53,657 bases of DNA, taken from NCBI GenBank assembly GCA_020831625.1, contig JAFIGD010000036.1, positions 1-53,657 of the forward strand, read 5' to 3'. Of the stretch, positions 11,865-52,002 are shown piece after piece. Source of the DNA: Verrucomicrobiota bacterium. Lineage in GTDB: Bacteria; Verrucomicrobiota; Kiritimatiellia; SS1-B-03-39; UBA6053. A program made the position numbers and the translations under genes. The first letter of the stretch is position 1; each line of letters starts with the position of its first letter. Under the pieces are notes generated by a model that saw only the letters and a list, made by a program, of their open reading frames with translations, was not told the origin of the DNA and made no database searches.

Positions 11865-13225
11865 TTAAGTGTTAGGGTAATCGACGGTGCGTAAGCCACC
11901 GTCGTCAATAGTTTCAGCTTGAATAATCTCACACGGGGGCTCCCCAATGATCCGCATTCGTGCTTTAAGTCGAATGCGAAATTCATGACGAACGACTTCA
12001 TGAATAGGGGAATTGATGAGATTACTCAACTCATAAGGGTCGGTTTGTAAATCGTAGAGGCAAAGTTCCTGATACACCTGGGCGTGAGCCTTTCCCTGGT
12101 AAAGGTTATCCGCTCCAACAGCATATTTCCATCGATGCGTGCGTAAAGCCCTCCCGGGAGGAAGAAAACCGTCACCAAACTGTATAAAACTATCCTCCGG
12201 CAGCCGACTGCGGTCCCCGGTTATGACCGGTAAGAGGCTGACACCCTGCATGGAATCCGGAATATTTATTCCTGCACAGTCCAGAAGACTGGGGACAAGA
12301 TCAACCAAGGAGACAGGACATGTGTGTTCTCCGCCTCCGTTCCATTGTGGTCCCCAGAGCGCAAAAGGAACCCGGACAGAAGATTCATGAGGAGTGCGTT
12401 TGTATTCCGCATTTCTGGTTTTGAAATGACACCCGTGATCGGAAATAAAGGCTACAACAGTGTTCTTGGCCTGACCGGTGGACTCGAGGGCATCCATCAG
12501 TCGTCCAAGAGCGTCATCCAGACGTTTAATCATGGCGCAATAACCTGCCCAATCTCTGGCAGATGAGCCTCCGAGAGCCTGCAGATCCGGCGGAAGCCAT
12601 TTCCCCATATAATCACTTTCCATTCCATGTGGCGCAGGAAATGAGTCATCTGTATTCTGATGATGAGGCTCTAAGTAAAAAATAAACAGGAGGAAAGGTT
12701 GTTACGGGATTAATGAACGCTTATGAATATATTGAATAGCCGCATCGGTCTGGGCATCAGAACGATATCCGGCAAGTTGGATTTCCTGATCTTCTGCATT
12801 CCACAAACGGGCTGAGTAAGGGCCTGAAATCAATTCAACGAGATTTGCCCCCAACCAATCCTGATAACCTGCACGATTTTCTTTTGGAACAGCGGCATGT
12901 CCTGTGCCTTCTGAAAGATGCCACTTGCCGATGTAGCCGGTGCGGTAACTGTTCGCACTAAAAAGCTCTGCGAGTTTGGGTGCATCGCATTTCAGCCCTT
13001 TTCCGTTTTTATATACTCCGGTGGTTGTGGCATACTGACCGGTTTGAAGGCAGGATCGAGCAGGGCCGCAAAGCGGCTGTGGAGTAACCGCATCCTTAAA
13101 AAAGTGCCCTGTCTTGCAAAACGGTCGAAATGCGGGGTTAGTCCAAGTGTGTTTCCATTTAAACCTAAGGTGTCCCAGCGTTGTTGATCAGTAAAAAATA
13201 CAATAATATTGGGCTTCATTTTCAT
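11865..13225 (-). pseudogene. arylsulfatase-family gene broken by a frameshift and a nonsense codon
   Basis: When read through two lesions, this is a full-length sulfatase of about 450 residues. It opens MKMKPNIIVFFTDQQRWDTLG (metal-binding Asp), and the formylglycine signature LCGPARSCLQTG, YIGKWHL and FISDHGCHF with the HESSVRVPFALWG segment follow. Lesion 1 is a one-base loss in a run of six T (minus strand, about 13098-13103), just before the CGPAR motif. Lesion 2 is an in-frame TAA at 12702-12704, between RSLIP and QPFLLF. Between and after the lesions the frame is otherwise open. Two independent lesions argue for true decay rather than one sequencing error. It would have removed sulfate esters from a polysaccharide. 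No clear signal peptide is visible. Confidence 0.85.
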
Positions 13226-13365
13226 AAAGGCGTCATGATGAACCTAACGTGAATTCTTTCGTAGTCATTACTTCAAAAAGACCCGACAGATGAAAATCGG
13301 AAACGTGCAAGAAGAATGCACGCTCCGCTAATCCTTGATCAGGGTCTGACCTTTGAACGCCTCCG

Positions 13366-35578: not shown

Positions 35579-35635
35579 AATCGGATACTTTTTGCCTTTC
35601 TTTTGCCCGGCGCGGGCTTAGTTTCATCCTTAACC

Positions 35636-38107
35636 ATGGACCCCATTTCAAATTCCATTTTAATTTTCACCATCATCTCGCTGCTGATTCTGGCGGCGCC
35701 CCTGTTGTCGCCCAAAATCAAAATCCCCGACATCGTGCTGCTGATGGCCGCCGGAGCGGCCCTGGGACCTCACGGCCTGCATCTTTTGCAGCGCAACAGC
35801 GCCATCACCCTCTTCGGTGAAGTCGGACTGGTCTACATCATGTTCCTCTCCGGTCTGGAAATTGATCTCTACGAATTTATGCGCACGCGGAAGCGCAGCA
35901 TTGGCTTCGGCCTCATCACCTTCCTGATCCCTCAGGTCCTCGGAACCCTGGGGGTGTATTATGCCCTCGATCTTTCCTGGCCCGCCTCCATCCTGGTGGC
36001 CAGTATGTTCGCGTCGCACACCCTCCTGAGCTATCCGATCGCCAGCCGTCTGGGCATACACCGCAGTGAAGCGGTGACCGTGGCCGTGGGCGCCACCATC
36101 ATCACCAACGTGCTGGCCCTGTTGGTGTTGGCGGTGGTGGTCGATTCCGCAGGCGGAACGCCCATGGATTTCCTTTTCTGGCTGCGCATTGCCGCGGGCA
36201 TGGCCATTCTGGTGATCGCAAGCTGGTGGGGCATTCCCAAACTGGCCCGCTGGTTCTTTCAAAACGTCACCGAAAGCGGCGGTTCGCAGTTCATGTTTGT
36301 GCTCGCGGTCACCTGCGCCTGCGCATATCTCTCCAACTACGCCCGCATGGAACCCATCATCGGCGCTTTTCTTGCCGGCGCCGCGTTTAACCGGCTCATC
36401 CCCGAACGCAGTCCCTTGATGAGCCGCCTGGTGTTTGCCGGCAACACCCTGTTCATCCCCTTCTTTTTGATCTCCGTGGGTATGCTGGTCGACCCCTCGG
36501 CCCTGACGGGAAGTCTGGATGTCTGGAAAGTCATCGGAGTCATGGTGGGCCTGGTCATTGCCACCAAAGGACTTGCGGCCTGGATTGGCGGCAAACTCTT
36601 TTCCTACTCACGAAACGAAACCGGTGTTGTCTTCGGCCTCAGCGTCGTGCAGGCCGCGGCGACCCTCGCAGCCGTGCTCGTGGGCCTTCGCGTCGAACTT
36701 CTCACCTCCGATATCCTCAACGGCGCCATCGGCATGATTCTGGTCACGGTCCTTGTCGGTGCCGGATTCGTTGAACGCTGTGGCCGCAAAATGGCGCTCA
36801 AACAGCTCACCCAGCCTGAAACTGAATCCAAAGAACAACGAATTCTCATCTCCGTGGCCAATCCCTTTTCCGCCGCGCGCCTCATGGAACTCGGCCTCTT
36901 TCTGCGCAGTCCCACCCACGCGGGAGCCCTCTACCCCACCACCATCGTCCGCCAACAAAACCAAACCAGCGACGCGGTCTCCAAAGGGGAGGAACTGCTG
37001 GCCAAGTGCCTCGCGCAAACCGAAACCACCGAAGAACGCATCCTTCCAAACGTCCGCGTCGACCTCAACCCGGCGGACGGCATCGCCCGCGCCGCGGAGG
37101 ATGTTCGCGCGGATGTTGTGCTCACCGGATGGGGCGGAGAACACACAGCCAATGCCCGCATTTTCGGCTCTGTGAACCGCAAGCTGTCGGAAACCTGTCC
37201 GTCCCGCCTCTTCCTCTGTCGCATTCTCACCCCGCTGAACAACGACAAACGCATCCTGCTCCCCTGCCCGCCCCTTGCGGAATACCGCAGTGACGTGGAC
37301 TTGTTGTTTTCGGATGCGAAGCGGCTGTGCAAACAACTGGGCGCGGAACTGACCGTCTATCTGCACGGCGCGGCGGCGGACAAGCTGGAGGAGGCGGTGA
37401 CCAAAGCACTCCCCAAATGTCCGCTCACGGTGCGGCGCGACGACACCTGGTCCGCCTCCCGGGTAAAGCTTTTTCAGGACATCCGCAAAGACAGCCTCGT
37501 GCTGCTCCCCCAGGAGCGGAAAAACTCCACCCTCTGGACCCCCACCCTGGACCGCATCCCCGAACTCATCGCCGCCAAATATCCGGAAGTCAATTTCCTC
37601 GTCGTCTTCCCGGCCCTCCCCCGCCTGGGGGAATCAACCGTCCTGTCGGTGCCTCCGCAGGAACAAAATGACTTCCCGGAAACGCATGCCCTCCGCTTGA
37701 CCGACAACCTCGACGCTGAGGCCGCGATTCTGCATCTCCTGCGCAGCGGCATGCCGAACGAGGAGGAATTGATCTCCAACTGCTACCAGCAGCTTCTCAC
37801 CTCCGCACGCCACCATCCCGTGGAAGTATGCAAAGGGATCCTTCTCCTGCACGCCCACGCGGGAAACCACAAGAAGCCCATCCTCCTCACCGGGGTCGGT
37901 CAGATCCAGCATCCCTTTTTCGAGCGCGAATCCCCTCCCCGCGTGCTCCTGGCGCTCATCACCCCCCTCGGATACGAGGCCAGCCAACACCTGCATACCC
38001 TCGCCACCGTCGCCGAGTGTTTCCGCAACCGCGAGGCCGCCTCCCGCCTCCAGCACGCCGACACCTCCGAGGACATCCTGCATATCCTCGCCGGCCTCCA
38101 GTCTTGA
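35636..38107 (+). CDS. CPA2-type cation/proton antiporter with C-terminal USP-like domains
   Basis: An 823-residue membrane antiporter. The first 385 residues form a Na_H_exchanger domain with about 12 helices (KIKIPDIVLLMAAGAALGPHG, GEVGLVYIMFLSGLEIDL, FASHTLLSYPIASRLG, PIIGAFLAGAAFNR). The cytoplasmic C-terminal half carries two regions resembling universal-stress-protein folds (RILISVANPFSAARLMELG, later RILLPCPPLAEYRSDVDLL and LWTPTLDRIPELIAAKYPEVNFLV). It should exchange Na+ or K+ for protons. The ATG at 35636 is preferred to an upstream TTG. A close paralogue is at 49516-52002. It converges on the SLC13 gene with a 12-base gap. Confidence 0.88.
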   Translation: MDPISNSILIFTIISLLILAAPLLSPKIKIPDIVLLMAAGAALGPHGLHLLQRNSAITLFGEVGLVYIMFLSGLEIDLYEFMRTRKRSIGFGLITFLIPQVLGTLGVYYALDLSWPASILVASMFASHTLLSYPIASRLGIHRSEAVTVAVGATIITNVLALLVLAVVVDSAGGTPMDFLFWLRIAAGMAILVIASWWGIPKLARWFFQNVTESGGSQFMFVLAVTCACAYLSNYARMEPIIGAFLAGAAFNRLIPERSPLMSRLVFAGNTLFIPFFLISVGMLVDPSALTGSLDVWKVIGVMVGLVIATKGLAAWIGGKLFSYSRNETGVVFGLSVVQAAATLAAVLVGLRVELLTSDILNGAIGMILVTVLVGAGFVERCGRKMALKQLTQPETESKEQRILISVANPFSAARLMELGLFLRSPTHAGALYPTTIVRQQNQTSDAVSKGEELLAKCLAQTETTEERILPNVRVDLNPADGIARAAEDVRADVVLTGWGGEHTANARIFGSVNRKLSETCPSRLFLCRILTPLNNDKRILLPCPPLAEYRSDVDLLFSDAKRLCKQLGAELTVYLHGAAADKLEEAVTKALPKCPLTVRRDDTWSASRVKLFQDIRKDSLVLLPQERKNSTLWTPTLDRIPELIAAKYPEVNFLVVFPALPRLGESTVLSVPPQEQNDFPETHALRLTDNLDAEAAILHLLRSGMPNEEELISNCYQQLLTSARHHPVEVCKGILLLHAHAGNHKKPILLTGVGQIQHPFFERESPPRVLLALITPLGYEASQHLHTLATVAECFRNREAASRLQHADTSEDILHILAGLQS

Positions 38108-38119
38108 AGGACGTGATCA

Positions 38120-39949
38120 TTAAAACGGAAGCAATACCGGGATCAACACGACACTGACGATCAGCACAAGGATGGCAAAAGGGACACCGAGGCGCACAAA
38201 ATCGATGAAGCGATAATTGCCGGGTCCCATGACCAGTGTGTTGACGGGCGAAGACACTGGCGTCATGAATGCGCAGGAAGCCCCCAGGCCGACGGCCATG
38301 GCGAAGGGATAGGGAGACAGGCCCATGATTTGTGCGACGGACAGGGCAATGGGGGCCATAAGAATCGCGGTCGCCGTATTCGAGATTCCCATGCCGATTA
38401 CGGCCGTGATGAGAAACAACAGACCCAACACCAGACGCGGGGAGCCGTCGCCGAAAGAATTTGCCAATAGATCCGCAGCCAGCGCCACCCCGCCGGTCCG
38501 TTGCAGTGCCAGAGAAAACGGCATCATACCGACAATCAGTACCAGTGTTTTCCAGTTGATCGATTGATAGGCACTTTTCATATCCATGCAGCGAAAGGCC
38601 CCGAGCAGCAGGCAGCCAATCAACACGGCATGAACATTGCGAATAACACCGGATAACATCAGGATGATGACCAAAGCCAGAATTCCCAGCGCATGGAAGG
38701 CGCGGTCGTGGGCGGGCAATACATCGGAGAGTTCCCTGGGCAGGGCCAGGGGAAGGAGGTCAGAGCCATCCTGTGACAGGACTTGGATGTCCTCCCAGAA
38801 GCCGGTCAGGAGCAGTGTGTCGCCTATTCGCAGGGGTTCGTCGAGCATGTCGTTCGCAAAAACGGTCTGTCCGCGACGCAGGCCGATCACCGTCAGGCCG
38901 GTCTCCAGTCTGATGTTGGCTTGTATGACCGTATGGCCAATAAAGCGGGATTCAGCGGTGACGATCGCCTCAATCATGCCGAGATCCTGCGTGTGATCCA
39001 TTAAATAGCGGTGCGTTGCGCCCAGCGGAAGAGCCTCCAGCCCCATTTCCTCTAAGAACTGTTCAATATCCGTGTCACCCCGTAAATCGACCAACAGGAC
39101 ATCATCCGCTTGCAGCATCGTGGCCCGGGACGGACGGACCAGCTTGCGGCGGCGGCCATCAACACGTTCAATTGCCAAAATGTGGGCTCCGTACTCTCGC
39201 AACTCAAACGCCTCCAGTCGTTGCTTGAGGAGAATGGAGTCGGACCGCACGCGGACCCGCCGCTCCCGCTCGTCCAACTGGTATCGTTCAATCCATTGAC
39301 GGAACGTGGGACGCTCCCGCTTGGATCCGTCGGCATCGTGCCCCTCTGGCAGCCATCGTTTGGCCCAGAGCATGTAGAGCACGGCCAGCGCCAAACAGAT
39401 CAGACCAAAGGGCGTGACGGAAAAGAGGCTGAAGCCTTTTTCGCCCTGACGGATCAATTCCCCCTGTACAATCAAATTGGGTGCGGTGGCCACCAGGGTC
39501 ATCATGCCGCTAATCAGGCCGGCCATGCTCAGCGGCATCATGAGTTTGGCGGGCGCCATGCCGTTGCTTTGGCAGATGCGCAGGACCACGGGAATAAAAA
39601 TCGCCACCACCGCCGTCGAACTCATAAAAGAACCGGAAAACCCCACGGCCAGCATCAGAAGAATCAACAACTTGGTTTCGCTGCCGCTGGACGTTTTATA
39701 GATCCAATCCCCCATCCGGCGCGCCACACCGGTTCGGACCAGGCCGTCTCCCAGAACGAAGAGCAAAGCAATCAGCACCACATTGGGATCGGAAAAGCCG
39801 GCCAAGGCCTCCTGAATGGTGATGGTGCCGGTGAAAGGCAGAATCGCAATCATCAACAGCCCCACCACATCCATGCGGGGGCGGTTAAGCGTGAACATCA
39901 ACATGGCTGAGGCCAACAGCCCCAGCACCCAAAACAGTTCCCAGCTCAT
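38120..39949 (-). CDS. SLC13/DASS-type transporter with TrkA-C domains
   Basis: A 609-residue inner-membrane protein in two halves of about five to six helices each (MSWELFWVLGLLASAMLMF to about residue 205; from about 415 to the end). They are separated by a cytoplasmic region of about 200 residues that contains two TrkA_C/RCK_C-like modules (VRVRSDSILLKQRLEAFELREYG; LETGLTVIGLRRG...DEPLRIGDTLLLTG). The motifs SSTAVVAIFIPVV, ATAPNLIVQGEL, GISNTATAILMAPIA and MTPVSSPVNTLVMGPGNY are typical of the divalent anion:Na+ symporter group. Substrate (sulfate, dicarboxylate or other) cannot be told. The start at 39949 matches the first helix; upstream codons have no family look. Confidence 0.87.
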   Translation of the reverse strand: MSWELFWVLGLLASAMLMFTLNRPRMDVVGLLMIAILPFTGTITIQEALAGFSDPNVVLIALLFVLGDGLVRTGVARRMGDWIYKTSSGSETKLLILLMLAVGFSGSFMSSTAVVAIFIPVVLRICQSNGMAPAKLMMPLSMAGLISGMMTLVATAPNLIVQGELIRQGEKGFSLFSVTPFGLICLALAVLYMLWAKRWLPEGHDADGSKRERPTFRQWIERYQLDERERRVRVRSDSILLKQRLEAFELREYGAHILAIERVDGRRRKLVRPSRATMLQADDVLLVDLRGDTDIEQFLEEMGLEALPLGATHRYLMDHTQDLGMIEAIVTAESRFIGHTVIQANIRLETGLTVIGLRRGQTVFANDMLDEPLRIGDTLLLTGFWEDIQVLSQDGSDLLPLALPRELSDVLPAHDRAFHALGILALVIILMLSGVIRNVHAVLIGCLLLGAFRCMDMKSAYQSINWKTLVLIVGMMPFSLALQRTGGVALAADLLANSFGDGSPRLVLGLLFLITAVIGMGISNTATAILMAPIALSVAQIMGLSPYPFAMAVGLGASCAFMTPVSSPVNTLVMGPGNYRFIDFVRLGVPFAILVLIVSVVLIPVLLPF

Positions 39950-40086
39950 AACGATGGCGTTGTACAGAAAACCCCGATTCGTACGGGCGCACGAAAGGAC
40001 GGAGTTAGGGTGGATAGCGTGCAGATCATGGTTAAAAGGGTGCCCTGAAGCGGTTCGGGAGTCAAGGCGAAATGGCAACAGGACTC

Positions 40087-40285
40087 CCCCCATTTTTCAG
40101 GGTAAAGTTGAGGATTCGCCTTTAAAGACTGGGATTATTCGAATTTATTAGGTGAAGAGCGGGAATTTTGAACCGAATAACAGGATTGGCAGGATCACGT
40201 CATAAATCCTGTTTATCTGTTTTTTTGGATCCTGTTATCCTGTCAAAAAAATAAATGCGCCATTGGCATGCTTTGGCCTTTTCCG
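40087..40285. repeat. dispersed repeat, long copy
   Basis: It begins CCCCCATTTTTCAGGGTAAAG and continues through TTCGCCTTTAAAGAC, CAGGTGAA-like and AACAGGAT blocks to AAATGCGCC. The first half matches 49353-49475 (about three quarters identical by eye), and the second half matches 5699-5811. It fills the gap between the divergent SLC13 and restriction-modification genes; nothing else is seen in 39950-40383. Confidence 0.7.
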
Positions 40286-40383
40286 CCCCGCCGTCAAAGT
40301 GGCATTCCATGCATTTGCCCGGAAAAGCGATTTTGCCCTGCCTGCGGACTTGGTTTTTCCACCGGATTGCGCATAACGGGGCC

Positions 40384-43300
40384 ATGACCTTCCTCCCGCT
40401 TCTGGACGACGCTTTCCTCGCCTCCCACTGGCACGCCGAATAAGAGGACTTCACCGCCTCCCCGGAAGCCGAAGCCCTGCACCAGCGCCTCCGCGCCTGG
40501 GCCGCCCGCGAAGTCCTCAAGGAAACCGCCTCCGAAGCCGCCTTCACCCAGCGCTTCTTCATCGAAACCTGGGGCTACACCCTCCAGGGCGGGGACACCG
40601 AAGGTCTCTACACCTGCCGTCCCCAGTTCGAGGTCGACCGCGCCGGACAAAGCGGCGGCCAGGGACGCGCCGACCTCGCCCTGGGTCATTTCGGCGCCGG
40701 CACCGACGGCGTGCCGCAGGTGCTCTGCGAATTCAAAGACATCCGCTCCGGCCTCGAAGCCCGCCAAAACCGCAAAGGCAACGCCCGCAGCCCCGTGGAC
40801 CAGGCCTTCGACTACCTCCAGGAGGCCCACGCCTCCCGCGACCGCGACGCCCTCGTCAGCCCCTCCTGGGCACTGGTGACCGACATGCGCGAGTTCCGCC
40901 TCTATTCCCGCCTCAAGGGCAAAGCCCAATACCAGGGCTTCGTCCTCAGCGACAGCCCCGATCCCCGCGTCCCCGCCCTGCTCGGCAACTCCGTGGCCGC
41001 CCGCTTCCGCCGCTTTGTTTTCTGGCGGCTCTTCCAGCCAGACCTCCTCCTCGCCAAACGCGGCGACGCCGCCCTCGACAGCCTGCTCCGCGACCAGGTC
41101 ACCCGCGAAAAGGCCATCGAAAAAGCCTTCTACCACGAATACCGCGCCTACCGCGAACACCTCTACCAGACCATCCGCGCCGCCAACCCCGGCTACACCG
41201 GCTCCCGCGGCAAACTCGTCCGCCTTACCCAGCGCTTTCTCGACCGCTGCATCTTCATCCTCTTCTGCGAGGACATGGGCCACACCCTCCGCTATCCGCC
41301 CGAACTCCTCCGCGACATGCTCATCGAGGAGAGCAACAGCAAATACTACGAAGCCGACGACTCCGCCTGCTGGGACCACATGAAACGCCTCTTCCGCGCC
41401 ATGCGCGACGGCGGCAAATTCGGCCCCCACCCCATCGACCGCTTCAACGGCGGACTCTTCGAGGAGGATCCCGAACTCGAATCCCTCCACATCCCCACCA
41501 AGGTCTACTGCGCCGAACAGCAGGGCGCGGGCGGCGGCGACAGCCTCACCCGCCATCCCCTCACCCTCCTCTACTTCTCCGCCGCCTACAACTTCGGACA
41601 CCGCGACGGCTCCGGCGAACGCGTCATCAACCTCTACACCCTCGGACGCATCTTCGAGCAGTCCATCACCGAACTCGAAATCATGGAGGCCGAGGCCGAC
41701 GAACGCCCCTCCATCAACAAACTCACCAAACGCAAAACCGACGGCGTCTACTACACCCCCGAATGGGTCACCCACTATCTCGTCGAAAACACCGTCGGCA
41801 CCCGCCTCGCCGACATCAAAAGCGAACTCGGCTACCCCGCCCTGCCGCCTCTCGACGAAACCGCCATCGCCGAATACCGCACCTTCCAGAAAGACAAACG
41901 CCGCACCGCCAAAACCGCCGGACTTCACCGCGACTTCCTCGCCAACTACCGCGGCCGCCTCGAACACCTCCGCGTGGTCGACCCCGCCTGCGGCTCCGGG
42001 GCTTTCCTCATCCAGGCCCTCAACCGCCTCATGACCGAATACCAGTGGATCGCCGGGGAACAGGAACGCCTCGAAGGCCAGCGCGGCCTCTTCGATCAGG
42101 ACGCCCTCATCCGCTCCATCCTCTCCCACAACCTCTACGGCGTGGACATCAACCCCGAGTCCGTCGAAATCACCAAACTTGCCCTCTGGCTGCACACCGC
42201 CGCCCCCGGCAAACCCCTCTGCGCCCTCGACCGCAACATCCGCTGCGGCAACAGCCTCGTCGATCCCGACTTCTATGCCACCCGACAGCTCGACCTCTTC
42301 AGCGAAGACGAAAAAGAGCGCGTCAACGCCTTCGACTGGAAAAGTGCCTTCCCCGAAGTCTTCTCCCACGGCGGCTTCGACTGCGTCATCGGCAATCCCC
42401 CCTACATCAAACTCCAGCACTTCCGCCGCGCCCAGGCCGAAGTCGCCGAATACATCTCCAACCATTACAACAGCGCCAGCGCCGGAAACTGGGACATGTA
42501 CCTGCCCTTCATCGAAAAAGGCGTCACCCTCCTCCATCCCAAGGGTCGCATGGGCTACATCGCCCCCAACGTCTGGATGGTCAACGACTACGGCCAGGCC
42601 CTCCGGAAATTCGTCAAAGAAAAAGGGGCCCTCGACCGCTGGCTCGACTTTAAAAGCCACCAGGTTTTCGACGAAGCCACCACCTACACCTCCCTCCAGT
42701 TCTTCCGCGGCCAACCCTCCCCCCACATCGCCTGCGCCTTCGCCCCCGACGGCAACATCGGCCATGTGCATTGGAGCGAGGCGGAAAGCATCCAGTATTC
42801 AAACCTTCAAAACGATGAGGCCTGGATCATCGCTTCAAGTGAGGAAAGATTTGCAAAAGAATCCCTCAGTGGATCTGGCGTAAGACTGGGTGATGTGGCC
42901 GATGGTATTTTTGTGGGGATTCAAACCAGCTCAAATGATGTATACCACTTGGAGAAAATTGCTCCGGGACTCTATAAAACAATCAAAGACTCATCCAAAA
43001 CCGTCGAACTTGAAGATGACCTTTTACATCCACTGGTAAAAGGTCCGGACACGAAGCGATACACTGTGCCTAAACCTCACCTGGCGATTCTTGTACCCTA
43101 TAAAGTTCAATCTGGCAGAGCTTTCCTTATACCCGCACAGGAAATGGCAAGGTTCTACCCCAAAACATGGGCCTATTTAAAAGAGGACGAACAAGAACTG
43201 AGAAAACGTGAAAATCGTAAAATGGATAACGATGATTTTTGGTGGGGGTACAACTACCCCAAAAATATCGACAAGCAGAAGGAACCAAGACTACTTGTAG

Positions 43301-44169
43301 CCGGCACAGCACCTGGCCTCCGATTTTTCTGTGATTCAAACGGTGAGTTTACCCAAGACGACAGAAGGGTATTCGCCGTAACCCCAAATAATCCTGATGA
43401 TCTCTGGTATTTTCTGGGAATCTTAAATTCGCCACTGGCTGAACAGTTTTTCAGAACTGTCGCAAGGCCAAAAGCAAATGGTTTCTTTGACATTGAAAAA
43501 CAGTTTCTTGAAGAAATCCCCATCCCCGACGCCAGCCCCGAACAGCGCCAACAAGTAGGGGATCTCGCCAAAGAGCTACAAGACCTGCACACCCAGCGCC
43601 GCGACCTCGTGGACGCCCTCGACATCCGCCTGAACAGTCCGCAAACCGAACCCCTGCGCCCCAAACCGGCCGCAAACTGGATCTGGGCCCAGGTCGGCAC
43701 CAAAACCAGCTTCCTCGATCATCCCGACCTCCCCAAGGGGCTCAACAAAACCCAAATCAAAGCCTGGTCCAAAGCCCGCCACGAAGACAACCTCGCCGAA
43801 CAGCTCGACACCCTCGACGTGCTCCTGCAACCCGGCGCCACCCTCCGCGTCTACAACACCGAAGACCAAATCACCCTCCACATCAACGACCGCCCCGTCC
43901 TCACCCTCTACGACAAACCCGACACCCCCTTCCTCGCCGCCCAGTGGCGACACACCCTCCGCCCCCGCAACGTCACCCAAGCCTACAACGGCAAAAAACT
44001 TCTCAACGATTTGTTAAACCTCAAACAAACCCAGGACCAAGGCCTAAAATCCAAAATCCTAAACCTCGACAACCAAATCACCGACCTGGATCAGGTGATC
44101 ACCGCGAAAGAGGCGGAAATGAATGAGATCGTTGCCGGGTTGTATGGCTTGGATGCCGGCACCCTTTGA
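40384..44169 (+). CDS. Type IIG restriction-modification enzyme interrupted by an early nonsense codon
   Basis: Read from ATG 40384 this would be a 1261-residue single-chain restriction-modification enzyme, but codon 20 is TAA (40441-40443). Past it the frame stays open to 44169. In order: an N-terminal PD-(D/E)XK nuclease (GRADLALGHF with Asp97; CEFKD with Glu116 and Lys118), a helical linker (about 150-480), an N6-adenine methyltransferase with DPACGSGAF near 533 and NPPY near 671, a target-recognition region (about 796-1045) and a C-terminal helical part. The only plausible restart is GTG 40711, which would lose Asp97, so the nuclease would be dead while the methyltransferase could remain. 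Base composition changes sharply in the recognition region. Length fits Eco57I/MmeI-like enzymes. Confidence 0.85.
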
Positions 44170-44244
44170 CCCGGCGATTTCATTCGCTTGAGAAAACCTA
44201 CTAAATCCATTGGAAATTCTGGGTATGGGGGCTAGGATAAATTC

Positions 44245-44697
44245 ATGAAGTATTTATCTTTGATTCATATCAGCGTATTGGTTTTCATCGGATCATTGCT
44301 CAGTTCCTGCACCGGGCAAACAAAAGGGGTGCAAAAAAGTTTGGAGGACGGTACGTATCGCGGAGGTTTCATGGACGAGGGAACGATTCAAGTAAATTTG
44401 GAATTCACTTTGGAAAGCGGCATCGTCACCGAGGCCTCGTTCCGCCACTTGGTGGGAGCCGATCCGGCCTATTATCTGGATGTGGAGGATGAACCCTATC
44501 GTTCCGTTGTGCGGCAGTATGATGACGCGTTGCAACATCTGGTCGGCAAGCCCCTGTTAGATCATCTGCCCGATCTATACCACCCTGAAACCATCGTGCG
44601 AACAGAAGTGGACGGCTACTCAGCGGCGACAATTCGCAGCAACAAGATCATCTCTTCCATTCGCGACGCCCTGAATCGAGGCGTTTACAGTTATTAG
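44245..44697 (+). CDS. FMN-binding-domain-like lipoprotein
   Basis: A 150-residue lipoprotein with a signal peptide and a lipobox-like LLSSC (Cys near residue 22). The mature part resembles the FMN_bind fold: DGTYRGGFMDEGTIQVNLEFTLESGIVTEASF at the start and VDGYSAATIRSNKIISSIRDAL at the end, where family members carry a (S/T)GAT site for covalent FMN attachment. Here the site reads SAAT, with Ala in place of Gly, so flavinylation is uncertain. It stands alone. A redox role in the envelope is possible but not shown. Confidence 0.65.
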   Translation: MKYLSLIHISVLVFIGSLLSSCTGQTKGVQKSLEDGTYRGGFMDEGTIQVNLEFTLESGIVTEASFRHLVGADPAYYLDVEDEPYRSVVRQYDDALQHLVGKPLLDHLPDLYHPETIVRTEVDGYSAATIRSNKIISSIRDALNRGVYSY

Positions 44698-44779
44698 CTC
44701 GACCCCGTTCAAAATGGTTGGAAAACCATGAATCAGCGCTTAGGGGACGCGAAAATGGAAAACTGAACCATGACACCTG

Positions 44780-44911
44780 CTCGGAGTCTTAAACTCCCCG
44801 CCTGCCGACTTCTTTTTCAAACGAATTTCCAAGCCAAAATCCGGCGGATATTTCGAGGCCAACAGACAATTCATCGCCCCCATCCCCATCCCCGACACCA
44901 GCCCCGACGCC
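44780..44911 (+). pseudogene. relic of the target-recognition end of a second Type IIG enzyme
   Basis: The frame reads LGVLNSPPADFFFKRISKPK then SGGYFEANRQFIAPIPIPDT SPDA. It aligns with the live gene's FLGILNSPLAEQFF...PKANGFFDIEKQFLEEIPIPDASPEQ near residue 1020-1050, but is a different sequence, so it comes from a paralogous gene. No start or continuation is present. A matching C-terminal relic lies at 48821-48856. Confidence 0.8.
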
Positions 44912-44947
44912 AGGTGGAGGGTGGGAACTCTTGACCCGGTGATTTGC

Positions 44948-45055
44948 GCGGACCTTCAGCCCGCGTCTGGTTTTGATTCGAATATCCCAGCCCGCCAACA
45001 GGCCTTCAGCCCGATGGCGGACTGGGCTGATATCGGCGCGGGCCTTCAGCCCGAA
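44948..45055. repeat. three short CCTTCAGCCCG repeats
   Basis: ACCTTCAGCCCGCG at 44951-44964, GGCCTTCAGCCCGATG at 45001-45016 and CGGGCCTTCAGCCCGAAC at 45039-45056 share the same core within 110 bases. The third forms a CGGGC/GCCCG hairpin. The rest of 44912-45338 has no gene that I can support. Confidence 0.5.
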
Positions 45056-45338
45056 CGAGTCGTTTGAATCTGCGATCCGTTTCGTCAATGATGCCCGTCA
45101 AACTGAAGTCTGAATGATAAGACATCTCCCCATACCCCAAATCCACCCCTCCGACCTGTATCCCCACATGGGGCGCTCTCTCTGCGCCACACCAGTCCTC
45201 GACCACATGCTTGCCTATTATGGGCCTGAGTCCCGCCGGAAGAAGCACGGAAGCTGGTGGAGGACAGTCTGACGAAAACCCTGGGAGCCCTGCACAAGGA
45301 GTTGCGGAAGCGCAAGCTGGCGCCCGGGGGATTGGACA

Positions 45339-45608
45339 GGAGCGCCAATCTCCGCATTGGCGGGGCGAAGGGGGTCTTCCCACGGGAGCGCCGGTCTCCG
45401 CACCGGCTGGGGCAAAGGGGGTCTTCCCACGGGAGCGCCGGTCTCCGCACCGGCTGGGGCAAAGGGGGGCTTCCCGCCGCGCGCGCATTTCCGCCGCAAG
45501 CCGATGCGGAGATCGGCGCTCCCGTGCCTTTCCGCCGCAAGCCGGTGCGGAGACCGGCGCTCCCGTGCCTTTCCGCCGCAAGCCGGTGCGGAGATCGGCG
45601 CTCCCGTG
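45339..45608. repeat. REP/BIME cluster left of the RAYT transposase (3 direct + 3 inverted units)
   Basis: Three direct units begin GGAGCGCC.GTCTCCGC at 45339, about 45386 and 45432, spaced about 47 bases; the first has an AAT/ATT base-pair variant of the stem. They are followed by three inverted units ending in GGCGCTCCCGTG, spaced about 41 bases. Each unit contains the hairpin GCCGGT/ACCGGC or a compensated variant. The same layout occurs at 46331-46510. Confidence 0.85.
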
Positions 45609-45671
45609 AAAAAACGTCCCGCTTGCATCATCCTGCTTGACTCACCGCGTTAAAACAATACATCCGTTTTC

Positions 45672-46316
45672 ATGCGAATGCAACACTCCCTCTGTACGGT
45701 CGGCACCCCGCTGCTCAGAAATTGGGACGTCACTCCCGAGACGTCATCGCGCGGGTATCTTCCCCACGAATTGGGCGGGGGACTGGTGCAGCATGTAATT
45801 CTTCATCTCGCCGACTCCATGGCCGTGAAGGCGCTGGAGCGCATGCGCCGGGAGGTGGAGCATCTGCCTGACGAGGAGTCGAAACGGGAGCTGGCGGAGA
45901 AAATCGAGGCTTGGTCCGATGCGGGACACGGCTGCTGCGCCCTGCGTCAAGCCGCCCATGCCGTCAAGATGCGGGACACCCTGCTGCATTTTCACGAAAT
46001 CCGTTACCGCCTCTTCGCCTGGGTTATCATGCCCAATCATGTGCATGTGCTTTTTGAAACCTTTCCCGATTGGCCAATGGACGGGGTGGTGAACGGATGG
46101 AAGAAATGCAGTGCCACAGAAATTCTCAGGGACCACCAATCGCTGCCCCGCCCCTTGTGGCAAAGGGAGTTTTGGGACCGCTACACCCGCAACCTGCGTC
46201 ATTTCCGCAAAACCGTGGACTATATACACCAGAATCCGGTCAAAGCCGGTCTGGCCTCCCGCGCCGAAGATTGGCCCTGGAGCACCGCCGCCGCCTGGGC
46301 TTCGTTTTTGGGGTGA
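45672..46316 (+). mobile_element. REP-associated tyrosine transposase (RAYT, Y1/HUH family)
   Basis: A 214-residue single-strand DNA transposase of the IS200-like HUH superfamily. The HUH motif is NHVHVLFE within WVIMPNHVHVL, preceded by RYRLFAW; the C-terminal RAYT signature WQREFWDRYTRNLRHFRKTVDYIHQNPVKAGL contains candidate catalytic Tyr residues, and the family ending EDWPWSTAA is present. The frame is intact. REP clusters of the same type flank it at both sides (45339-45608 and 46331-46510), as expected of an enzyme that acts on such palindromes. RAYTs are usually single-copy domesticated transposases. The start at 45672 has an alternative ATG at 45678. Confidence 0.9.
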
Positions 46317-46330
46317 AGGGGGGCCTCAAA

Positions 46331-46510
46331 GGAGCGCCAATCTCCGCATTGGCGGGGCGAAGGGGGTCTTCCCACGGGAGCGCCGGTCTCCGCACCGGCT
46401 GGGGCAAAGGGGGTCTTCCCGTCGCACGTGCATTTCCACCGCAAGCCGATGCGGAGATCGGGGCTCCCGTGCATTTCCGCCGCAAGCCGGTGCGGAGACC
46501 GGCGCTCCTG
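46331..46510. repeat. REP/BIME cluster right of the RAYT transposase (2 direct + 2 inverted units)
   Basis: Direct units start at 46331 (AAT/ATT variant) and about 46377, followed by two inverted units ending GGGGCTCCCGTG and GGCGCTCCTG. Order and orientation are the same as in the left cluster, including the AAT/ATT variant coming first, so the clusters look like duplicates. Confidence 0.85.
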
Positions 46511-46540
46511 TAAAGGCGCACTCCTGTGGCAAAGCCCCCT

Positions 46541-47120
46541 TCACCCATCCAGCTCGTTGAAGATTCGCTGCATGCGTTGGATGCTTCGGCTGGACACTCC
46601 GGCCTCTTTTGCCAGGGTGCCGAAATCCGCCACGGCTCCGCGCACCTGCTCAAGAATCTCCACGGCATCCCGCTCACGCAGATCGGCCTGTTTGGCCAGT
46701 TCCAGCAGGTGGGTCCGACGGGGGTGCCGGCCTTCCCCGGCGATGGACAGGGTGTGCCATCCGTTCGGTCCCGGATTGTAGGTGAAGTCGTAGAGGGGCG
46801 ACAGACGCCACGTCCCGTCCCCATCCATAAGAAAGGCGAAATTCTTCATGTGATCATCCCGGTTGGATGCCAGCACATTCAGGCAGATCCGCCGAAAGAG
46901 TTCCCGCGTTTGCGCGTAATCGCGGGTGAGGGCCCGGGTGAGACGGAACAGCAGCTCCGCCTCCTCGCCCGATGTGCGGAAGTCCGCGTGCAGGAGCCCG
47001 GCGGCGGAGTGCAGATGCAGCCGCCGCCCCGGAGCGGGCCGGTCAAAACGGCGCACCGCGAAAAAAGAGCCAATGCGTGTGGAAGGCTGAAAACCGCAGG
47101 CGGACGTCCAGGCGCTTCAT
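46541..47120 (-). pseudogene. hipA: hipA toxin kinase with a large internal deletion
   Basis: The start is preserved: ATG 47120 overlaps the hipB TGA (ATGA) and encodes MKRLDVRLRF, a normal HipA opening. After a few codons the frame closes. In another frame from about 47080 the sequence resumes as FFAVRRFDRPAPGRRLHLHS and continues through AAGLLHADFR, NVLASNRDDHMKNFAFL (catalytic Asp and Asn region) and LSPLYDFTY to the end at 46541. Family members have about 400-440 residues; about 230 internal codons, covering the N-terminal domain and part of the kinase N-lobe, are missing. The kinase cannot be active. The antitoxin gene upstream is intact. Confidence 0.85.
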
Positions 47121-47473
47121 GCGGTTGCCGCTTTCTGTTTGCGCGGGCGCACCCGCTGACGGGTCGGAGGTTCCTTCTCCAGGGCTTCGAGATCCCCGGG
47201 AATCGTGGAAAGCCGCAGACGTTCCCGCAGGGTCCGATCCACCTCATCCAGGATCCCCAAGGCTTGAAAGACCCGCAAGACTGCGTCCACACTCCCATGC
47301 CCTTCGCGCTCCAGCCGCGACAAGGTGCTCACCGGCACGCCGGAACGGGATGCCAACATGGGCAGCGTCCACTCCTGCCGCTGCCGCAGATTTCGCAGCC
47401 ATTGCCCCAAATTCTCCCGGACTTCGCCGGGACTGGACAGTTGGAACAAAGAAAAATGATCGGGTGAACTCAT
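47117..47473 (-). CDS. hipB: HipB-like antitoxin, XRE-family DNA-binding protein
   Basis: A 118-residue protein with an XRE helix-turn-helix (LGQWLRNLRQRQEWTLPMLASRSGVPVSTLSRLEREG, about residues 22-60) followed by a short helical region and a basic C-terminal tail (RQRVRPRKQKAATA). Its stop overlaps the hipA start, the normal hipBA arrangement. It should repress its own promoter and would neutralise HipA, but that toxin is deleted here. A copy of the double-hairpin element lies 65 bases upstream of its start. Confidence 0.85.
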   Translation of the reverse strand: MSSPDHFSLFQLSSPGEVRENLGQWLRNLRQRQEWTLPMLASRSGVPVSTLSRLEREGHGSVDAVLRVFQALGILDEVDRTLRERLRLSTIPGDLEALEKEPPTRQRVRPRKQKAATA

Positions 47474-47537
47474 GCATCATAATTACAATATTATAGCGTT
47501 AAAGTCAATATACGGCTGTTATTTTATGATATGGGAA

Positions 47538-47590
47538 TTTTTCCGATGTTCGGAAAATGCGGTCCGGCGTTTTCCGAATCTCGGAAAAGC
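47538..47590. repeat. double-hairpin element, copy 2
   Basis: Two tandem hairpins with stem TTTTCCGA/TCGGAAAA and loops TGT and ATC, as at 32694-32745; about 45 of 52 positions agree by eye. It sits upstream of hipB. The rest of 47474-47716 holds no gene that I can support. Confidence 0.85.
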
Positions 47591-47716
47591 CGCGGACCAT
47601 GTAATCGCCGCCAAAGAGGCGGTAAACCTTCGGGGAAAAGGGTGAAATACCGGGCCGCTCAGCTGAAGAGGGTGTTTCCAGAATACGCATTGCAGCTTCC
47701 ACTTTGATGAACACCC

Positions 47717-48103
47717 TTAGCGCGGCTTGTCGGCCGGAGAGCGCGTCTCGCCCTCCGTTTCTGTGCCCGAATTGGAGATGGCCGCAAGGCGTGGCGCCAT
47801 GTCCGGAAAACGCTCCCGGTAGTCTTCGCAACTTCGGCGGATCAGATCCAGGGCTTCGTCCCGTCCGTAGACGTGGGTAATTTCACACGGCTGGGGCGGC
47901 GTGACGCCGGGCACCTGTTTGTAGGTGAGAAAATAGTGTCGCAGTCGCTCGATCAACGCCGGCGGGCAGTCCTGGATCTCCCGGTAATTTCCATACAGGG
48001 GATCTCCCTCCAGGACGGCAATAATTTTATCGTCCGCCTCCCCGTTGTCGATCATCCGGAATCCGCCCACCGGGATGGCTTGAGGATGGGCTTGATAGAG
48101 CAT
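47717..48103 (-). pseudogene. ppa: inorganic pyrophosphatase gene with an in-frame internal deletion
   Basis: An open frame of 128 residues. It begins MLYQAHP, the opening expected of a full-length family I pyrophosphatase of this subgroup, then joins directly to QAIPVGGFRMIDNGEADDKIIAVLEGD, which normally lies after residue 100, and continues through HYFLTYKQ (Tyr-Lys pair) and CEITHVYGRDEAL to a normal end. The segment with the substrate lysines and Tyr/Glu and the GDGDPLD metal site is missing. The frame is kept, so a short protein may be made, but it cannot hydrolyse pyrophosphate in the usual way. Recognition of the subgroup is from memory of the family. Confidence 0.75.
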
Positions 48104-48196
48104 GGGGGAACGTTGGGGGAATGCGGAACGGAAGTCAAGCCGGGATTCCGGCCAGGACCTTCCCCAGGTTTCCCCTCAGGAAACCGCAGCGTCGTC

Positions 48197-48664
48197 TTAA
48201 AGTGTCCCATGCCGTTCAAAATACCCGAGCAGCTTGCCGGGATCGGTTTTCGCGAGGTTGGACGCAATCACGCTGGTGATTTTCGCGCGGGCGGCCGGCT
48301 CCAATGCGGCCAACACCTGCTTGTGGATGGGCGCACTGACGGCCAGCAAACAGTGGGTCACCGCCGGATCCGCCAGAAGGGTATTGATTCTTCCAGCCAG
48401 CTCGACAATGGATCGCCGTTCCTGTTCCGTCTCCGTGTTAAGGCTTTCCCCCGCCGAGAGGTTTCCGCTGATGTTCACCGCGCCGGCGCCCTGTGGAAAC
48501 CGTCCCGCCTGATCACTCACCTGCTCGGACCGTTTCTGACGGGCTCGTTCCGGTTTCCATTCTTCGATTCGTTCCAGCGACGGCGGACGTCCGTTGTCAG
48601 GATCTGTTTTAAGATAGGCCCGGAGTAAACCGAGGTCGGTGACGATGATGATGGTTTTTTTCAT
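48197..48664 (-). CDS. host-attachment/baeRF-like protein
   Basis: A 155-residue cytoplasmic protein. The opening MKKTIIIVTDLGLLRAYLKT and the C-terminal part (ELAGRINTLLADPAVTHCLLAVSAPIHKQVLAALEPAARAKITSVIASNLAKTDPGKLLGYFE) resemble the host-attachment family, which belongs to the eRF1/baeRF-like fold. The ATG at 48664 has GGAGA about 9 bases upstream and gives a normal start; an in-frame ATG at 48697 is less likely. A middle segment (about 35-85) is poorly conserved and charged. Function in bacteria is not settled for this family. Confidence 0.65.
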   Translation of the reverse strand: MKKTIIIVTDLGLLRAYLKTDPDNGRPPSLERIEEWKPERARQKRSEQVSDQAGRFPQGAGAVNISGNLSAGESLNTETEQERRSIVELAGRINTLLADPAVTHCLLAVSAPIHKQVLAALEPAARAKITSVIASNLAKTDPGKLLGYFERHGTL

Positions 48665-48820
48665 GGGGTTTATCTCCGTTTCGGACCCGGGAATCAACCT
48701 GGACCGGCTGTCAGTCTGTCAGGCGGGGGGCCGTCTTGATTTTCGTTTGAAAAACAGTTCAATTCTTCATGCCAGAGTACAACGGCCCCCACACGCCCGC
48801 CATGGGGTAAAACCCCACTG

Positions 48821-48856
48821 AGCACCGAACTGGATCAAGTGATCGACGCGAAAGAG
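48821..48856 (+). pseudogene. short C-terminal relic of a second Type IIG enzyme
   Basis: The frame reads STELDQVIDAKE, matching TDLDQVITAKE close to the C-terminus of the live enzyme (about 44086-44120) with nearly the same codons. It follows the recognition-domain relic at 44780-44911 on the same strand and in the right order, so both may derive from one gene. Otherwise 48665-48907 holds nothing that I can support. Confidence 0.6.
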
Positions 48857-48907
48857 GGGGGGGCTGAGGCGCAAGGTTGGAAAACAATTTAGAAGGGATG
48901 GAGAGAT

Positions 48908-49051
48908 CTATCTCCCTCCCCAGTAGTCGGGACGTCGATGCAGATGCATTGTCGCCTGGATGACGATCTCCTCAGGATCAACCCGATACAGGAGAGCATA
49001 AGGGAATCTGTGGACAAGACGTCGACGTATATTGGATCGAACCGGCTTCAT
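48908..49051 (-). pseudogene. ParE/RelE-type toxin gene with most of its N-terminus deleted
   Basis: A 47-residue frame starting at ATG 49051, which overlaps the antitoxin TGA (ATGA). It opens MKPV and then jumps to RSNIRRRLVHRFPYALLYRV and an end IQATMHLHRRPDYW, the C-terminal half of a ParE-like toxin (normally about 95-100 residues). Around the probable joint, CGATCCAAT occurs twice, 18 bases apart. The core helices are missing, so the toxin is very likely inactive. Confidence 0.75.
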
Positions 49052-49278
49052 TGGATCGCAGCCCGGGCATCGCGAAGAACATCCGCCGCGGAACGGGCGG
49101 AAACCTTTCCGCTTTTGTAGGCCCGGTGGCGGCGATCCGCCTCGTCCAGCCAAAGCTGCTCATTTTGCTCAAGGCTGAGTTCATCCAGGCTGGCGATCAG
49201 ATGTTCCGCAAGCGCGGCCCGGTCACTCGGCGACAGTTTCAACGCCTGTGCTTTACAATCAAGAAGTGCTGGGGACAT
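49048..49278 (-). CDS. addiction-module antitoxin (PF09720-like)
   Basis: A 76-residue antitoxin-like protein: ALKLSPSDRAALAEHLIASL, then a helical WLDEADRRHRAYKSGKVSARSAADVLRDARAAIQ, the pattern of the putative addiction-module component family. The ATG at 49278 has GGAGAA about 7 bases upstream; a longer in-frame start at 49317 is less likely. Its stop overlaps the start of the truncated ParE-like toxin, the normal order for this pair. It looks intact although its toxin is not. Confidence 0.85.
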   Translation of the reverse strand: MSPALLDCKAQALKLSPSDRAALAEHLIASLDELSLEQNEQLWLDEADRRHRAYKSGKVSARSAADVLRDARAAIQ

Positions 49279-49352
49279 GGGGTATTCTCCTTTGTTGGCC
49301 CAAGACAAACGCATCAATGTATCTGAATCAACACACTTTCTCCCAGGATCTT

Positions 49353-49475
49353 CCCCATTTTTCAGGCTAACATTAAGGTTTCGCCTTTAAAGACAGGGAA
49401 TATCCGAATTTTCCAGGTGAAATGCGGGGGTGAAATGCGGGAATGAACAGGATAAGATCGAGTCGATCCTGTTTA
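49353..49475. repeat. dispersed repeat, second copy of the CCCCATTTTTCAGG type
   Basis: It starts CCCCATTTTTCAGGCTAAC, contains TTCGCCTTTAAAGACAGGGA and ends with GAACAGGATAAGATCGAGTC and GATCCTGTTTA. It aligns along most of its length with 40087-40215. It lies directly upstream of the second antiporter gene. Confidence 0.7.
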
Positions 49476-49515
49476 TAGCTTGTCCCGCCGGGAATTGCGG
49501 TTTAGGGATGAAACC

Positions 49516-52002
49516 ATGTTCCCCGTGACCGACTACGTCCTGATTTTCACCATCATTATCTCCGTGATTCTGGTGTCCTTTCTGCTGGCCGCGAAACTCA
49601 AAATTCCCGATCTGGTGCTGTTGCTGCTTGCGGGAGTCGTGCTCGGCGAACATGGCCTGAATATCCTCACCCGCACCAGTGCCATCACCCTCTTCGGCGA
49701 AATCGGCCTGATTTACATCATGTTCCTCGCCGGTCTCGAAATCGACCTCTACCAGTTCTCCCGCACCAAACGCAAAAGTGTCAGCTTCGGCTTTTTGACC
49801 TTTATTATTCCCCAGGTCCTCGGGGCGGCGGCGGTCTATTATATTCTGGGAGGCATCTCCTGGACCTCCGCCATCCTCATGGCCAGTATGTTCGCCTCCC
49901 ACACCCTGCTCGCCTATCCCGCCGCCAGCCGGCTGGGCATTCACCGCAGCGAACCGGTGACCATCAGTGTGGGGGCCACCATCATCACCGACACCCTCGC
50001 CCTGCTGGTGCTCGCCGTGGTGGTCGACGCCGCCCAGGGTGAAAAAATGGGCTGGGTGTTCTGGGGCGGACTTTTCCTCGCCCTGTTTCTGCTGGTGGTG
50101 CTCATCAGTCAGCTCATTCCGCGCATCGCCCGCTGGTTCTTTCAGAACGTCACCGAATCCGGCGGTGCCCAGTTTCTCTTTGTGCTCGCCCTGGTCTGTG
50201 CCTGCGCCTATTTCTCTCAATACGCCCGCATGAAGCCCATCATCGGGGCCTTCCTGGCCGGCGCCGCCTTCAACCGGCAAATTCCCGAACACAGCCCGCT
50301 GATGAACCGGCTGGTGTTCGCGGGGAACACCCTGTTTATTCCCTTTTTCCTGATTTCCGTGGGCATGCTCGTGGATCCGAAGGTCCTCATTGGCGATCCC
50401 CGCACCTGGCACGTGATCGGCATCATGGTGGGCATGGTCATTCTCACGAAATTCATCGCCGCCTGGATCGGCGGCTGGATCTTCGGCTACTCCCGCCCTG
50501 AACGCGCGGTCATGTTCGGCCTCACCGTGGTTCAGGCCGCCGCCACCCTCGCCGCCGCCCTGGTGGGCTTCGAAGCCGGCCTGCTCGACGAGGCCGCCCT
50601 GAACGGCTCCATCGCCATGATCATGGTCACCGTCCCGCTCGGCTCCTGGGTCACCGATGCCTTCGGTCGCAAAATGGCCATGGAAGCCATCGCGCCGGCG
50701 CACTCATCCCGGCAAACCGAACAGCGGCTCCTCATCCCCATCCACAACCCGGTCTCCGCCGCCCGCATGATGGAACTGGCCTTTCTCATCCGGGACACCG
50801 CGGTGCCCGGCGGCCTGTATCCGCTCACCATTGTTCGCGATCAAACCGACACCGAAGACGCCGTGTCCCGCGGCGAAAAGCTGCTGGCCCAGTGCATGAC
50901 CCACGCCTCCTCGGTGGACATCGAGGTCGAACCGCAGGTCCGGGTGGACCTCAATCCCGTCGACGGCATCGCCCGCGCCGTCCGCGAACTCCGCGCCAGC
51001 ACCGTCATTGCCGGCTGGGGCGGCGATCACAACCGCACCAGCCGCATTTTTGGCTCCACCAACGAAAAACTGACCCTGACCTGCCCCTCCCGGCTCATGA
51101 TTTGCCGGATGCTGCAGCCGCCCAACATCACCCGGGCCCTCCGGCTGTGCTTCCCGCCGCTTGCGGACCAGCGGGACGACCTGAACCAACTCATGCGCGA
51201 AACCCGCCTGCTCGCCAAACAGGCCGGCGCCGATCTGCATGTCTACCTGTCCGAGGATGTCGCGGAGGCATTGGAGGCCCGCATGGAGAAAATCGGTCCC
51301 GGATGCAGCACCACCTACCACGTCAGCACCACCTGGGCCGAAACCCGGAAAGACATGTTCGACCACATCCACGAGGACGATCTGATTCTCCTCCCGCAAA
51401 TCCGCCGGAACACCCTCCTTTGGACCCCCACCCTGGACCGGCTGCCCGAACTCATCGCCGAGCGCTTCCCCCGTTCCAACCTGATTGTCGCCTACCCCGC
51501 CCTTCGCACGGAGACCAACGACACCACCGCGCCCGTGTTCATACCCGCCACCGAAGCCTTTCCCGCCATGCACGGCGTCAATCTTCCGGAAGCGCTCTCC
51601 GCGCCGGACCGCATTCGGGTCCTCACAGAGGAGGGACTGCGGACGGTCCCCGGCATGGCGGCTGCCGCGATCCCCCTGCTGCAGGAATCCGCGCGGCTCA
51701 ATCCGGTGGAACTCGCCCCGGACACCATCCTCCTGCACGCCCATTGCGGCCAACAGCCGCACCCCCTGCTGCTGATCGGATACAGCAACAGCAACAAACC
51801 CTTCTTTAATATGGAGAAAACCCCGCACCTCCTGGTCTGTCTGCTGAGTCCGAGAGGCGACTCCCCCGCCCTCCATCTTCAGGCCCTCGCCAAGGTCGCC
51901 CGGAAGTTCAGAACCCCTGAAATTGTCGAAGCCTTGTCACAGGCGTCAAACGCCGACAAAGTGTGTTCCATCCTTTTTGCACAGCCGCCAGACAAGCAAT
52001 AA
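49516..52002 (+). CDS. CPA2-type cation/proton antiporter, paralogue of 35636-38107
   Basis: An 828-residue membrane antiporter with the same build as the first one: a Na_H_exchanger domain (LKIPDLVLLLLAGVVLGEHG, GEIGLIYIMFLAGLEIDLYQF, FASHTLLAYPAASRLG, PIIGAFLAGAAFNR) and a cytoplasmic C-terminal half with USP-like regions (RLLIPIHNPVSAARMMELA, LWTPTLDRLPELIAERFP). The two are strongly similar through the membrane part, so they are paralogues. The ATG at 49516 has AGGGATG just upstream and opens directly into the first helix; an in-frame ATG at 49480 is less likely. It stands alone, between a dispersed repeat and an AT-rich gap. Confidence 0.88.
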   Translation: MFPVTDYVLIFTIIISVILVSFLLAAKLKIPDLVLLLLAGVVLGEHGLNILTRTSAITLFGEIGLIYIMFLAGLEIDLYQFSRTKRKSVSFGFLTFIIPQVLGAAAVYYILGGISWTSAILMASMFASHTLLAYPAASRLGIHRSEPVTISVGATIITDTLALLVLAVVVDAAQGEKMGWVFWGGLFLALFLLVVLISQLIPRIARWFFQNVTESGGAQFLFVLALVCACAYFSQYARMKPIIGAFLAGAAFNRQIPEHSPLMNRLVFAGNTLFIPFFLISVGMLVDPKVLIGDPRTWHVIGIMVGMVILTKFIAAWIGGWIFGYSRPERAVMFGLTVVQAAATLAAALVGFEAGLLDEAALNGSIAMIMVTVPLGSWVTDAFGRKMAMEAIAPAHSSRQTEQRLLIPIHNPVSAARMMELAFLIRDTAVPGGLYPLTIVRDQTDTEDAVSRGEKLLAQCMTHASSVDIEVEPQVRVDLNPVDGIARAVRELRASTVIAGWGGDHNRTSRIFGSTNEKLTLTCPSRLMICRMLQPPNITRALRLCFPPLADQRDDLNQLMRETRLLAKQAGADLHVYLSEDVAEALEARMEKIGPGCSTTYHVSTTWAETRKDMFDHIHEDDLILLPQIRRNTLLWTPTLDRLPELIAERFPRSNLIVAYPALRTETNDTTAPVFIPATEAFPAMHGVNLPEALSAPDRIRVLTEEGLRTVPGMAAAAIPLLQESARLNPVELAPDTILLHAHCGQQPHPLLLIGYSNSNKPFFNMEKTPHLLVCLLSPRGDSPALHLQALAKVARKFRTPEIVEALSQASNADKVCSILFAQPPDKQ

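Follow-up and report, generated by a model that had tools for sequence, protein, structure and literature searches.

Why should three neighbouring genes on the same strand, hipA, ppa, and the gene for a ParE-like toxin (parE), each keep a beginning and an end but lack what lies between them? The genes are situated in the window, i.e., the whole stretch of 53,657 nucleotides analysed here, which is the entire contig C53 of the draft genome G000 (4.89 Mb in 111 contigs; completeness, 96%). An initial annotation had put the losses at about 230, 100, and 45-50 codons for hipA, ppa, and parE, respectively, and had considered a common deletion process acting just behind start codons, selection against toxic products, and a systematic assembly fault.

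Sequence Comparisons

The main comparator was G001, a genome of the same genus, supplemented by further genomes at the level of the family, class, and phylum. The survey of the window was done in three pieces of the 53.7-kb sequence. Deletions were judged against intact homologues, which for ppa and parE exist in G001 and for hipA in more distant genomes only. By this comparison all three neighbouring genes have indeed lost an internal segment, and the measured losses of ~217 (hipA), 102 (ppa), and 49 (parE) codons are close to the earlier estimates. Naturally short homologues can be rejected as an explanation, as intact proteins in relatives comprise at least 204 (pyrophosphatase), ~96 (ParE), and ~385-430 (HipA) amino acids.

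The Soluble Pyrophosphatase Gene

The ppa locus consists of the following features:
48084-48103, minus strand: ppa 5' remnant MLYQAHP (from comparison with L026, L030, L033, and L034)
47717-48082, minus strand: ppa 3' remnant, positions 68-152 of the PF00719 profile, in frame with the 5' piece, DxDPxD lost
48100-48108 (approximate), minus strand: 9-bp sequence CCCCCATGC, a single copy here and two in G001; the scar left by a second indel
48197-48697, minus strand: apparently intact PF10116 (Host_attach/baeRF-like) gene upstream of ppa

Full-length family I pyrophosphatases are encoded in G001 (L026), G002 (L030), G005 (L033), and G004 (L034), and intact relatives read MLYQ[AS]HPWHG...GD[DNQ]DPLDICVLTE...QA[IT]P[VI]GGF. 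At the joint in the window, MLYQAHP is followed directly by QAIPVGGF, a loss of exactly 306 bp (102 codons) in comparison with G001 that maintains the frame. The 3' remnant is 92% identical at the DNA level to L026:575-942 of G001, and differences in this core are mostly synonymous. A motif check found the catalytic motif DxDPxD in none of the frames of 46300-49400, and the missing segment does not occur at any other place in the G000 assembly, where the PF00719 profile gives one match. In the relatives, MLYQ is preceded by further codons of the open frame (MKDP..LMG-MLYQ, MAESPAPAPAP-MLYQ). The initial annotation had assumed a preserved start for all three genes and an ATGA overlap with the antitoxin for the two toxins; this is correct for both toxins but doubtful for ppa, whose ATG corresponds to an internal methionine in relatives. 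Judged from these alignments, the ATG of the window ppa is not clearly an authentic start.

Clear homology at the internal ppa joint does not exceed 1 bp, and imperfect repeats lie next to the joint. Upstream of ppa, the window matches G001 as far as the 9-bp CCCCCATGC and resumes 170 bp away, at the other G001 copy of this 9-mer, a difference that might reflect sequence either lost from the window or gained by G001. The ppa tail occurs twice in G001 (C301; L026:865-942 and 3175-3252), flanking an SLC13-type transporter gene, an arrangement that suggests an insertion or duplication there. An H+-translocating pyrophosphatase (PF03030, 920 bits) is intact in G000 and a soluble pyrophosphatase was found in only 7 of 56 relatives, and the loss of ppa is therefore unremarkable.

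The hipB-hipA Pair

47117-47473, minus strand: intact hipB-like HTH antitoxin gene (Pfam HTH_31, NCBIfam couple_hipB), its stop overlapping the hipA start (ATGA)
47082-47120, minus strand: hipA 5' remnant of ~13 codons (MKRLDVRLRFSAF; from alignment with L064 and L065)
46541-47071, minus strand: hipA C-terminal remnant, positions 54-209 of the HipA_C (PF07804) profile (from alignment with L064 and L065)

HipB of the window shows 81% amino acid identity to its G001 counterpart over residues 1-114. The 5' remnant of hipA aligns with MKLNVSFRFSP and MSLDRLHVSFAFAP of the intact L064 and L065, and the gene retains its first ~13 codons and the whole part beginning at about codon 230, with ~217 codons in between gone. 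Previously, hipA had been read as a single ORF (46541-47120); this does not hold, as the two remnants lie in different reading frames and a stop follows 25 codons after the ATG at 47120. The motif NRDDHMKN is kept in the remnant, and the P-loop GGSSGGARPK is missing and absent from all frames of 46300-49400. Intact hipA genes are present in G206, G168, G215, and G143 (homologues L064-L067, 55-62% identity), a contig search with the hipA remnant returned distant relatives only, and G001 yielded no close copy of full length. A search for the N-terminal part of HipA in G000-G003 gave no match in G000 or G001. As the G000 assembly contains one HipA_C match and zero matches to the HipA N-terminus, the missing segment is nowhere else in it. 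The counterpart of this hipB in G001 precedes a far smaller hipA remnant (~25 codons) from which the start codon is gone, and hipA was thus lost differently in the sister lineage. Relocation of the missing segments within the G000 assembly was considered as well and, according to these searches, is rejected for ppa and hipA.

The parD-parE Pair

49048-49317, minus strand: intact parD-like antitoxin gene (Unstab_antitox/TIGR02574 match)
49040-49051, minus strand: parE 5' remnant MKPV, still overlapping the antitoxin gene in ATGA (from comparison with G001 L029/L085)
48908-49039, minus strand: in-frame remnant of the parE C-terminal part, from RSNIRRRL onwards (DNA and amino acid match to G001)

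Behind the same antitoxin, G001 encodes a ParE of 96 codons and the window one of 47 codons, in which MKPV is joined to RSNIRRRL by an in-frame loss of 147 bp (49 codons); loss of toxin activity was judged by length only. The remnant is 82% identical at the DNA level to L029:3602-3730 of G001 and 84% identical at the amino acid level over toxin residues 52-96. ParE homologues start with MK[TI]VR or MNTVR, and on the 3' side several of them have V-R or V-K just ahead of the RRR motif; it is therefore plausible that a short repeat encoding V-R was present at the parE joint. When the intact ParE of G001 was used as protein query in G000, only the window remnant and two distant paralogues were obtained. 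Damage to parE genes is not limited to the window. Among the partial homologues in 97 relatives, a second parE of G001 (C234; L108) has lost its start behind an intact antitoxin, a parE of G052 (L110) keeps its start and has lost its body, and others show antitoxin-toxin fusion, frameshift, interruption, or C-terminal loss.

Decay in the Accessory Island and in the Sister Genome

38107-49400: accessory island between two paralogous antiporter genes (from identity to G001)
47641-47707, plus strand: short gene remnant KYRAAQLKRVF, start lost, C-terminus of a 227-aa protein

Most island segments with a match in G001 show 78-97% DNA identity and the rest of the window 64-77%; such high identity in the island would be expected for exchanged accessory genes. 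The flanking antiporter genes (35603-38107 and 49480-52002) are neighbours in G001, and the island genes are located there on contigs other than that of the antiporter pair. Two further genes are hollowed out in G001. Antiporter B, the counterpart of window 49480-52002, lacks 313 in-frame codons after about codon 66, and the Eco57I-like gene (window 40711-44169) lacks ~2.73 kb, its joint showing a shared sequence of ~4-5 bp. The remnant at 47641-47707 displays 80% DNA identity to a G001 gene (L026:3282-3965) that is intact there and encodes a protein of 227 aa. As a control, 13 window genes in 66-38,107 align over their full length with G001 with zero internal gaps, and decay is therefore concentrated in 38.1-49.4 kb and the flanking antiporter. 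In the comparison of other genes, as proposed initially, internal deletions recur in the G001 antiporter and Eco57I-like genes but in none of the 13 genes outside this region.

Some further features were observed along the window. A gene for a REP-associated tyrosine transposase (45672-46316) is flanked by many copies of a G+C-rich cgggagcgccgatctccgcatcggcttgcggcgg-like repeat at 45200-45620 and 46320-46530, which recurs across G000 and G001, and a palindrome-like element of ~52 bp (ttccgaacatcggaaaa type, 47539-47590) occurs at more than 20 places in G000 and in relatives, too. A sulfatase-like gene (11865-13300, minus strand) is seemingly broken, with an in-frame stop (SLIP*QPF) before a C-terminal ORF of 252 aa (11865-12623), and its N-terminal part runs on in another frame.

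Position of the Joints Relative to Start Codons

All three joints in the window are close to start codons. If deletions of the observed sizes are placed randomly within genes of the respective lengths, the probability that the 5' joint falls so near to the start is 0.10 for parE, 0.06 for ppa, and 0.08 for hipA, and in G001 it is 0.13 for the antiporter and 0.31 for the Eco57I-like gene. The combined p of ~0.02 is nominal, as the cases were picked for looking start-proximal, and the start-lost cases (hipA and the second parE, C234, of G001 and the remnant at 47641) stand outside this test. The common deletion process proposed initially is upheld only insofar as one region is decaying by internal deletion; a specifically start-proximal action is not supported, counter-examples being the G001 hipA, the C234 parE, and the 47641-47707 remnant, all of which are without a start. 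The closeness of the joints to start codons seems to be mostly a matter of chance and case selection, and for both toxins the intact overlapping antitoxin gene sets the 5' limit of a tolerated deletion. A deletion process in this genus that prefers the sequence just behind start codons, for example by being coupled to transcription or translation initiation, is extremely improbable, and we give hardly any credence to the notion that it would repeatedly hollow out genes while sparing the start and the upstream gene. If true, a directed process of this kind would be new, but the evidence presented here gives no indication of one.

Origin of the Deletions

In our opinion, hipA, ppa, and parE are very probably pseudogenes in a decaying accessory island, their internal segments having been lost by illegitimate recombination. 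The segments would have been removed by RecA-independent recombination of the short-homology or slippage type, and direct repeats at the joints amount to 9 bp upstream of ppa and to at most ~5 bp at the others. Such losses could be tolerated since the antitoxins remain and the membrane-bound H+-pyrophosphatase would make the soluble enzyme dispensable. The remnant reading frames carry no further stops, which means either that the losses are of recent date or that there is a reason for the fragments to persist. If the latter is taken to mean that the shortened genes encode functional new short proteins, C-terminal fragments maintained by selection, it would agree with C-terminal frames that are open in all three genes, with ppa and parE being in frame from an ATG, and with the predominance of synonymous differences in the ppa core. 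However, the catalytic motif of the pyrophosphatase and the P-loop of HipA are gone, the start of hipA lies in a different frame from the remainder, and an excess of synonymous changes can predate the deletion, making this reading very improbable.

Three joints inside 2.5 kb, on a contig of a draft genome in 111 pieces, might raise the suspicion that the segments exist in the organism and were lost by wrong joining of reads or contigs. However, direct repeats at the joints do not exceed 9 bp and usual assembly k-mers are far longer than that, the assembly does not contain the missing parts of ppa and hipA at any other place, the frame is exactly preserved at two joints, and the separate genome G001 carries equivalent but different deletions in orthologous genes. 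A systematic assembly fault, as suggested initially, is therefore improbable. Selection against toxic products, by which HipA and ParE would be deleted and their antitoxins left, may act alongside illegitimate deletion. Both antitoxin genes are intact with the overlap kept, the parE of G052 retains its start without its body, and the second parE of G001 was lost behind an intact antitoxin. Such selection could apply to hipA and parE but covers neither ppa nor the antiporter and Eco57I-like genes of G001; neutral decay gives an identical picture, and elsewhere remnants of ParE carry a frameshift or an insertion or have lost the end next to the antitoxin. We therefore regard a contribution of toxin selection as possible, although rather unlikely.

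Ordinary gene decay by illegitimate deletion, which is documented in other bacteria (PMC3637634; PMC2884548), remains the preferred explanation for the loss of hipA, ppa, and parE. In Streptococcus agalactiae, 136 of 193 indels larger than 4 nt lie between repeats with a median length of 8 nt (PMC3637634). In practice, hipA, ppa, and parE of this locus should be annotated as broken and the genome should not be credited with their functions on its account. The locus may serve as an example of the decay of toxin-antitoxin and accessory genes for which a sister genome keeps some intact alleles.

Comparison with Known Systems

A search of the literature for truncated toxins beside orphan or solitary antitoxins yielded no useful match. 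A parallel is provided by the short-repeat pseudogenes of S. agalactiae ST260-261 (PMC3637634), where accessory genes also suffer internal deletions, several genes are affected per lineage, and short repeats occur at some joints, although here a clear repeat is present at only some of the joints. As in HipBA type II toxin-antitoxin systems, a hipB-like HTH antitoxin gene precedes, with an ATGA overlap, a hipA with a HipA_C domain; in contrast to them, the toxin is broken, with ~217 codons including the P-loop missing and the frame lost. Similarly, the second pair resembles ParDE/RelBE-like modules with an Unstab_antitox (TIGR02574) antitoxin in the family match of its antitoxin, the ParE_toxin-type C-terminus, and the ATGA overlap, but 49 of 96 toxin codons are missing. 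With family I soluble inorganic pyrophosphatases (PF00719), the window ppa shares a C-terminal half that is 92% DNA-identical to the intact sister gene, whereas the N-terminal half with DxDPxD is missing.
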